A stretch of DNA of 64,000 bases, taken from the NCBI GenBank assembly GCA_017303675.1, contig JAFLBX010000002.1, positions 124,001-188,000 of the forward strand, in the 5' to 3' direction. The DNA is from Ignavibacteria bacterium. Its GTDB lineage: Bacteria; Bacteroidota; Ignavibacteria; Tepidaquicellales; OLB5. The translations under genes were made by a program, and so were the position numbers. This document shows, piece by piece, positions 61,946 to 62,612 of the stretch (the first letter of the stretch is position 1; each line of letters starts with the position of its first letter). The notes beneath the pieces were generated by a model. It worked only from the letters and a program-made list of their open reading frames with translations. It was not told the origin of the DNA and searched no databases.

Positions 61946-62248
61946 TTATAACGAAACTGAAAGATTCAGTTTCCCGCCTAAGCCCTTTTCGACAATTTTC
62001 ATTAGAGTTGAAATCCTAACTTCTTTAACATCGTTTTCAATTTTTGAAATATATGATTTTGTTGTTCCTATTTTATCGGCAAGCTCGCCCTGGGTCAAAC
62101 CTTTTTTAAGTCTTGCTTGCTGCAGTATAATTCCAAGCCGAAAGGATTCATAACTCTTCTCAAATTTGTCACGTTTTGCTGTCCCTCTTTTGCCGTATTG
62201 TTCTTCTATATGCTGGTCCAGTGATTTTAGTTTATTTTTCTGTTTCAT
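61946..62248 (-). CDS. higA: HigA-like antitoxin (XRE helix-turn-helix)
   Basis: The 100-residue protein has a Cro/C1-type helix-turn-helix near residues 41-94 (QQARLKKGLTQGELADKIG, then TTKSYISKIENDVKEV) and ends in a short strand (GGKLNLSVSL) typical of HigA antitoxins. It would bind the palindrome at 62593-62612 and neutralise the toxin encoded upstream. It overlaps the toxin gene by 17 bases, so the two are translated together. Toxin-first order marks the HigBA class. Confidence 0.85.
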   Translation of the reverse strand: MKQKNKLKSLDQHIEEQYGKRGTAKRDKFEKSYESFRLGIILQQARLKKGLTQGELADKIGTTKSYISKIENDVKEVRISTLMKIVEKGLGGKLNLSVSL

Positions 62249-62573
62249 ATTCTTTTTTTATCTTTAATGCTTTTTCAATTTCTGATTTCGGAGTTTTTTG
62301 CGTTTTCTTCTGAAAACCGCTTGTTACAATAATTAAGTTACCTTTGTCAAAAAAACAAAATATGCGGTATATGTTGCTGCTTTGCTTTACTCTAATTTCA
62401 TACAATCCATCAGTATTTGTAAGGTGCTTAAAATATTCTTCCGGAATAGATCTTTGTGATTCAATTAGCTTAAGTGTCCAAATTATCTTATCTTTTACTT
62501 TATTGCTTTGTTTACTTAAAAAATCAGTAAAATAGCTCTTATAAAAATAAATAGTTCTGATCTTATCATTCAT
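62232..62573 (-). CDS. higB: HigB/RelE-like toxin
   Basis: The 113-residue protein is a phage-derived Gp49/HigB-type toxin, probably an mRNA interferase. Conserved features are LKLIESQRSIPEEYFKHL, the DGLYEIRVKQSSNIYRIFCF strand with a catalytic-type Arg and Tyr (in two pieces), and GFQKKTQKTPKSEIEKAL. I start at ATG 62573, not at the adjacent TTG (62576), because the transcript seems to begin there. The promoter box sits so near that the leader would be one to three bases long. Confidence 0.85.
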   Translation of the reverse strand: MNDKIRTIYFYKSYFTDFLSKQSNKVKDKIIWTLKLIESQRSIPEEYFKHLTNTDGLYEIRVKQSSNIYRIFCFFDKGNLIIVTSGFQKKTQKTPKSEIEKALKIKKEYETEK

Positions 62574-62581
62574 CAATTGTA

Positions 62582-62612
62582 AATATAATCAAAGTTGCAC
62601 TATAGTGCAACT
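62582..62612 (-). promoter_or_regulatory. higBA promoter with palindromic operator
   Basis: The operator AGTTGCACTATAGTGCAACT (62593-62612) is a perfect 20-base palindrome. On the minus strand the -35 box TTGCAC (62605-62610) lies inside it, and 17 bases later is -10 box TATATT (62582-62587). Repressor binding would block polymerase directly, as in autoregulated toxin-antitoxin operons. Confidence 0.85.

Follow-up and report, generated by a model that had tools for sequence, protein, structure and literature searches.

Promoters abutting the toxin start codon in Gp49-type higBA operons: a conserved layout that may keep toxin output below antitoxin output

In the 64,000-nucleotide stretch of DNA from an Ignavibacteria bacterium that we analysed (hereafter the window), a toxin–antitoxin operon of reverse gene order has its promoter so close to the toxin gene that the message is predicted to begin immediately before the toxin start codon, and the same geometry is found in most close relatives. 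The mechanism that we propose is the following. A Gp49-type higB–higA operon would be transcribed from one main promoter, and HigA, perhaps together with HigB, would bind a palindrome that lies over the upstream promoter element and thereby turn the promoter off. When the promoter fires, the 5′ end of the message would coincide with the toxin start codon or lie about 3 nt from it at most. Ribosomes would then begin the toxin on a message with no leader or almost none, with GTG as the start codon in about half of the relatives, while they would begin the antitoxin internally, at a site of a standard kind, A-rich in Bacteroidota and of the Shine–Dalgarno type in Bacillota. Such an arrangement probably serves to make less toxin than antitoxin with no need of another promoter. 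We consider this reading fairly probable.

Judging from its sequence, the locus is a Gp49-type HigBA, that is, a type II toxin–antitoxin system of reverse order, which is a common and known kind of system (Table 1). The toxin matches the PF05973 profile with E=6.2e-27 (93.9 bits, compared to a cut-off of 23.9), and this is the one PF05973 match in the 3.65-Mb genome to which the window belongs. An in-frame TTG (62576–62574) directly precedes its ATG at 62573. The toxin gene comes first and the antitoxin gene overlaps it by 17 nt. The antitoxin also starts before the toxin ends in 65 of 73 close loci from the best 80 of 186 relatives, a count that leaves out L013, L052 and L053, whose toxin frames are short, and that includes one locus in which both frames run together. 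Upstream, a co-directional ORF ends at 62644, 70 bp before the toxin gene.

Table 1. Features of the higBA locus, in coordinates of the window
Feature	Position	Strand	Remarks
Toxin gene, HigB-like, Gp49 family	62232..62573	minus	113 aa from ATG 62573; PF05973 profile match
Antitoxin gene, HigA-like HTH (XRE)	61946..62248	minus	100 aa, ATG 62248; HTH_3 E=4.2e-14
Operator AGTTGCACTATAGTGCAACT, perfect 20-bp palindrome, predicted HigA site	62593..62612	minus	Same-place sites in homologues
TTG, upstream (−33) promoter element, within the operator	62608..62610	minus	
TATATTTA, downstream (−7) promoter element	62580..62587	minus	5/6 fixed positions of TAnnTTTG
Predicted transcription start	62574..62575	minus	1–2 nt before the toxin ATG; inferred from F. 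johnsoniae spacing
A-rich region before the antitoxin ATG, within the toxin coding sequence	62249..62268	minus	A at −3/−6 in homologues

The AlphaFold model of the toxin has a mean pLDDT of 90. Its top Foldseek match is M. tuberculosis HigB1 (7awk, TM 0.74 by query length), and all six matches with E <= 0.001 are HigB1, RelE or HigB2, so that the protein is predicted to have the fold of the RelE/ParE superfamily. The similarity to these solved structures is weak (best E 3.5e-4, with 19–20% identity to HigB1). The toxin family, the gene order and the RelE-type fold are those described for A. baumannii HigBA, M. tuberculosis HigB1 and S. pneumoniae HigB (PMC5906591, PMC9098466); M. tuberculosis higB1 differs in that its promoter is given as 51 nt upstream of the start codon (PMC3968373). 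We also observed that the toxin (62235–62573, minus strand) matches the C-terminal part of the PADLOC model NsnC (E=1.4e-13), which suggests that a Gp49-like domain is fused within a defence protein.

An earlier note on this DNA had described a perfect 20-base palindrome containing a −35 box, a −10 box after exactly 17 bases, and a start of transcription one to three bases before the toxin ATG. The palindrome is there with the upstream promoter element inside it, and the spacing is right (TTGCAC from 62610 and TATATT from 62587, on the minus strand), but the class of the promoter has to be revised: it is better read as a promoter of the Bacteroidota type, TTG-N20-TAnnTTTG. The promoters of this phylum are described as TTTG and TAnnTTTG at −33 and −7 (PMC6847099, PMC7366714). 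In the window, the 5.9 kb that lie upstream of ORFs contain 11 copies of TAHHTTTG and the 52.6 kb of ORF contain 19, hence the motif is about 5-fold denser upstream, where it is seen 11 times on the sense strand versus 5 on the opposite strand. TATAAT is about 2-fold denser upstream of ORFs (8 occurrences versus 34 in ORFs), without strand bias (8 versus 9 on the opposite strand). The enrichment of TAHHTTTG and its preference for the sense strand suggest that the genome probably uses the Bacteroidota-type promoter, and the comparison with TATAAT is the reason why we abandoned the classical −35/−10 reading.

In F. johnsoniae, the box is at −12 to −5, which leaves 4–5 nt between the box and the start of transcription (PMC6847099), and the position of the box is the same in F. 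psychrophilum (PMC9723704). Here 6 nt separate the TATATTTA box from the toxin ATG, and the spacing of F. johnsoniae therefore puts the predicted start at 62575 or 62574. The start proposed by the earlier note thus holds as a prediction.

Such a short distance is not the norm in the window. A strict box is present within 100 nt in 11 of the 59 ORFs that have upstream sequence, and the spread of the gaps to the start codon (3, 6, 19, 20, 20, 20, 21, 24, 28, 44 and 66 nt) is what leads us to this conclusion. One ORF (10700–11068, minus strand, 122 aa, with a hydrophobic start), which we take to resemble NADH dehydrogenase subunit A, has a TTG 19–21 nt before TATTTTTG, a box that ends 6 nt before its ATG; it is a candidate for a second near-leaderless gene in the window.

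The distance between the box and the toxin start is kept in close homologues. These were collected by a scan of one genome per species, and the best 80 of 186 relatives were retained (59–73% identity over the match); nearly all are from the Bacteroidota group, three are Ignavibacteria and one (L043) is labelled Candidatus Planktophila. One of the 80 (L049) was left out since its contig ends at the gene, and 79 loci with upstream sequence remain. An in-frame start codon, picked among the in-frame candidates 1–10 nt after the box, is present in 75 of these 79 loci, or in 76 of 80 with the window; long leaders, the layout that the earlier note had set against its own reading, are not the rule. 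Of the 76 loci, 36 have a gap of 4 nt and 16 a gap of 6 nt. If transcription starts 4 nt after the box, 36 toxins would begin exactly at +1 and 16 would follow a 2-nt leader; the message would begin with G in 46 of these loci and with A in 16. All 36 loci of the 4-nt class have GTG (32) or ATG (4) at the predicted +1, and a start codon retained at this position speaks for initiation at the 5′ end.

Taking the first start after the best box gives 35 of the 76 loci with a gap of 4 nt and 15 with one of 6 nt, and single loci at 10, 13 and 18 nt. When a single start is fixed for each locus, a box that matches at 6/6 positions is found 1–10 nt upstream in 64 of 76 loci, compared to a mean of 0.72 and a maximum of 4 of 76 in 200 shuffles; this test leaves out the loci without an in-frame ATG or GTG, 4 of the 80 close loci and 4 of the 40 further loci described below. 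Clustering the toxins at 75% identity gives 33 clusters and the same picture (gaps of 4 nt in 14 and 6 nt in 5; 15 GTG, 17 ATG and 1 TTG starts). Four loci are counterexamples. In L037, L045 and L070, the operator and the box are kept but there is no start in the toxin frame at that place, the frame being shifted near the start, and L079 is without this operator. As for two annotated Bacteroidota plasmid loci, that of B. finegoldii fits, with a gap of 4 nt, while the Parabacteroides locus L244, with a gap of 20 nt, is leadered and does not. Three scans for viral relatives gave 0, 0 and 4 loci, which were left out of the counts.

The operator also has a nearly fixed place. In 75 of the 76 close loci (from the best 80 of 186 relatives and the window) it reads GTTG-N10-CAAC and begins 23–27 nt before the box; a palindrome located elsewhere, which the earlier note had named as a contrary outcome, is not the rule. 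The perfection of the palindrome, on the contrary, is found at the window and is not a shared trait: all nine pairs are symmetric in the window only (1 of 76 loci), and 67 of the 76 loci have 5–7 symmetric pairs. The position of the palindrome and the homologous operators rule out that it arose by chance. Perfect palindromes of at least 20 bp number 4 in the 64-kb window, versus 0.15 expected from a first-order Markov model; the three others, of 20–22 bp, are at 26081–26102, 49794–49813 and 50794–50813. A search of the 3.65-Mb genome for the core of the operator, TTGCACNNNNGTGCAA, returned this single copy.

HigA would be the protein that binds this site. In the covariation between operator and HigA (corrected, 74 loci, kinship ignored), the strongest pair is base 11 with residue 63, which presumably belongs to the recognition helix according to the usual HTH layout; non-HTH residues also score high, and we take this pair as a hint only of a contact between HigA and the operator. 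In distant PF05973 loci, different palindromes often lie over or adjoin the −7 box, and several of these loci keep the start 3–6 nt after the box, so that the short leader persists at some loci where the operator differs.

The two genes differ in their start codons. In the 76 close loci (75 from the best 80 of 186, and the window), the toxin starts with GTG in 36, ATG in 39 and TTG in 1; the toxin of the window has ATG, not GTG. In the 36 GTG toxins there is no further in-frame ATG, GTG or TTG for at least 18 codons, so that the GTG is very likely real. The antitoxin starts with ATG in all 76 of these loci and in 81 of 81 overall, bearing in mind that our script preferred ATG and that an alternative GTG or TTG is present at a few loci. 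The difference in GTG/TTG starts (37 of 76 toxins versus 0 of 76 antitoxins) has a Fisher p=4e-14, relatedness being ignored.

The bases that precede the two start codons differ as well. A is found at −3 in 67 of 76 antitoxins versus 29 of 76 toxins, and at −6 in 60 versus 8 of 76, although the A-rich context of the antitoxin consists in part of codons of the toxin C-terminus. In a message whose first base belongs to the toxin start codon, the bases upstream of that codon would not be transcribed. In F. johnsoniae, the presence of A at both −3 and −6 enhances initiation (PMC6847099). No structure is predicted for the RNA of the window around the A-rich region of the antitoxin. The normal site that the earlier note had attributed to the antitoxin is there as an A-rich context, but mostly not as a Shine–Dalgarno sequence: words that resemble it are found at 18 of 81 antitoxin starts, and we rejected this type of site as the usual one for the antitoxins of Bacteroidota, a phylum reported to be naturally without Shine–Dalgarno sequences (PMC6847099).

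The dosage argument depends on how efficiently leaderless messages are translated in Bacteroidota. In E. coli, a leaderless ATG message gives about 10% of the expression of a leadered one, and a leaderless GTG message less than 10% of that with ATG, while mycobacteria reportedly translate leaderless messages, whether they begin with ATG or GTG, at much the same level as leadered ones (PMC4633059). The mycobacterial case speaks for a different reading, in which operator, promoter and gene are simply crowded into a small mobile module, so that the leader comes out short without any loss of toxin translation; a phylum that makes no use of Shine–Dalgarno sequences may indeed translate leaderless messages well. 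We think that this is unlikely. Short leaders are a minority in the phylum: just about 3.7% of the 5′ UTRs of B. thetaiotaomicron are under 10 nt (PMC7366714) and 5.5% of the mRNAs of F. psychrophilum are leaderless (PMC9723704); in F. johnsoniae, 87% of the predicted transcripts with a probable promoter have a leader of more than 10 nt, leaders of 10 nt or less being not rare (PMC6847099). Packing also leaves unexplained why GTG is so frequent at toxin starts and absent from antitoxin starts, and most PF05015 toxin genes of this phylum have their box 24–25 nt before the start. Last, Bacillota do use Shine–Dalgarno sites, yet the strong one is at the antitoxin, not at the toxin (see below). 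We therefore keep the reading in which the leaderless end would limit toxin output.

Another alternative is inspired by E. coli hicAB, which also has the reverse gene order. There, the autoregulated transcript is truncated at the ribosome-binding site of hicA, so that it is without a normal site for the toxin and supports HicB only, and a second, constitutive promoter serves the whole operon (PMC7167474). By analogy, the regulated promoter would here serve mainly the antitoxin, and the toxin would be made from an upstream promoter or by read-through. It is true that a TAHHTTTG box of any kind is found upstream in 20 of 75 loci in sense versus 6 of 75 in antisense, and that in the window the ORF ending 70 bp upstream is on the same strand, so that read-through from it could supply a leadered message. 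However, a second upstream promoter, defined as a box with its matching TTG, is found in just 3 of 75 loci (0 in antisense), and all loci of the 4-nt class retain a start codon where the message is predicted to begin. In an RNA transcribed from upstream, the palindrome (62592–62613, minus strand) would fold into a stable hairpin, with T-rich sequence after it; in the window, a read-through message would bear this hairpin just ahead of the toxin gene, and the hairpin might hinder read-through from the ORF that ends at 62644. We consider a hicAB-like division of labour quite unlikely, and the single main promoter at the toxin start remains the reading that we prefer.

Nor is a promoter dedicated to the antitoxin apparent in our searches. 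These covered strict TAHHTTTG boxes: one lies between the toxin and antitoxin starts in 1 of 75 loci, and 0 of 81 loci have one at 70 nt or less from the antitoxin start. The E. coli operons mqsRA and rnlAB are likewise toxin-first operons that need an excess of antitoxin, but they differ by their additional antitoxin promoters (PMC6918082, PMC7167474), and extra promoters are, according to a review, how reverse-order systems secure the antitoxin (PMC7167474).

In the wider Gp49 family, the layout is, from these sequences, frequent but not universal, whereas it is strong in the close family. We considered 40 further PF05973 loci from across the phylum, 36 of which have an in-frame ATG or GTG. 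A box that matches in at least 5/6 positions lies 1–10 nt before the start in 16 of these 36 (shuffles: mean 3.2, maximum 8), and a 6/6 box in 6 of 36 (mean 0.34, maximum 2). In a comparison of toxin families, based on boxes matching at least 5/6 positions 2–9 nt before an in-frame start, the count is 13 of 29 for PF05973 (other best matches), 4 of 30 for PF05015, 3 of 30 for HicA and 0 of 30 for the ParE toxin, which is the second gene of its operon; of the first genes of 30 ParE operons, 2 have their closest box 4 or 10 nt away. BrnT is mixed: in 5 of 30 the best box is no more than 7 nt away. These counts rule out that the toxin genes of the phylum are leaderless in general. The boxes of PF05015 toxins peak at the 24–25 nt mentioned above, which corresponds to a leader of about 20 nt. 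In the PF05015 HigB-like operons (L083–L112), half-sites such as GCGTTAGTAACG are seen between the box and the ATG, and the operator of these operons seems to sit in the transcribed leader. The PF05015 toxin of the genome studied here (L090, C1:637217-637495) has a 5/6 box 4 nt before a GTG, unlike most of PF05015.

A similar geometry is found outside Bacteroidota. We examined 26 plasmid loci, picked by hand for the spread of organisms among the matches listed (30/193, 60/370 and 50/3757 records), two of which (L263 and L272) carry an identical toxin. In 14 of the 26, a sigma70-type promoter has its −10 box ending 5–8 nt before the annotated start. The toxin ATG annotated in L247 and L256 lies directly against the −10 box, ahead of any place where transcription is likely to start, and an in-frame ATG two codons later is 6 nt after the box; the annotated toxins are probably two residues too long. 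If this second ATG is taken, 16 of the 26 loci fit: 14 of 14 from Bacillota (12 of 14 with the annotated start; shuffles: mean 0.35 of 14, maximum 3), Leptospira L264 (Spirochaetota) and Mycetohabitans L266 (Pseudomonadota). The geometry was not found in the Enterobacterales loci (0 of 8), Stanieria L265 or Desulfosarcina L245. It is important to note, as a warning, that automatic annotation can put the start of such toxins upstream of the message, as in L247 and L256.

The median Shine–Dalgarno energy in 20 non-Bacteroidota loci is +0.5 kcal/mol for the toxin versus −9.0 kcal/mol for the antitoxin, and energies of −4 kcal/mol or lower are found at 6 of 26 toxin starts versus 24 of 25 antitoxin starts; in Bacillota, the strong site is at the antitoxin and not at the toxin. 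Mycetohabitans L266 has the geometry, but the antitoxin there begins with TTG, preceded by a weak Shine–Dalgarno sequence. The idea of the earlier note that translation would favour the antitoxin has thus gained support, from the start codons, from the A-rich context, from the near absence of an internal promoter and from the Shine–Dalgarno sites of Bacillota; the lower translation of the toxin itself we infer.

What was already known is that HigBA is a type II system of reverse order and that reverse-order toxins, including a Gp49 one, can be leaderless in Synechocystis. In Synechocystis sp. PCC 6803, the mapped transcription starts of the toxin genes sll1651, sll1965 and ssl7039 coincide with their start codons, and every toxin–antitoxin locus with leaderless initiation has the reverse gene order (PMC4963859). 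The toxin gene comes first as in our operons, and Ssl7039 also has a Gp49 domain. Not all such genes are leaderless, since the reverse-order HigB gene ssr5020 has a distance of 19 nt. That study concerns three loci of one species, and its accessible text contains no comparison of start codons or contexts, no other phyla and no link to dosage (PMC4963859). The toxin–antitoxin operons of M. tuberculosis are mostly leaderless too, but there a quarter of the genes are leaderless (PMC3898074). Among the titles and the beginnings of abstracts of the open-licence papers listed by our searches, we found no description of this layout in Bacteroidota or Bacillota, or as a control of dosage. What is new is the conservation of the layout across phyla and the role in dosage that we propose for it.

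The need for an excess of antitoxin would thus have a simple translational answer, visible in the sequence in Bacteroidota, in Bacillota and in one locus each from Spirochaetota and Pseudomonadota, and the question of dosage becomes testable with reporters. The hypothesis predicts that leaderless messages, including those that start with GTG, work in Bacteroidota, where leaderless messages are a minority, and it provides a possible route by which a toxin could be released through a shift in translation initiation. One may go further and suppose, tentatively and with some doubt on our part, that a design rule operates in several phyla: the promoter would be fused to the toxin start, the toxin would be initiated only from the 5′ end, leaderless and often with GTG, and the antitoxin internally, at a standard site, so that the ratio of the two proteins would be set by the balance between leaderless and standard initiation. 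If this were true, conditions that favour leaderless initiation would tilt the same message toward the toxin, with transcription and proteolysis unchanged.
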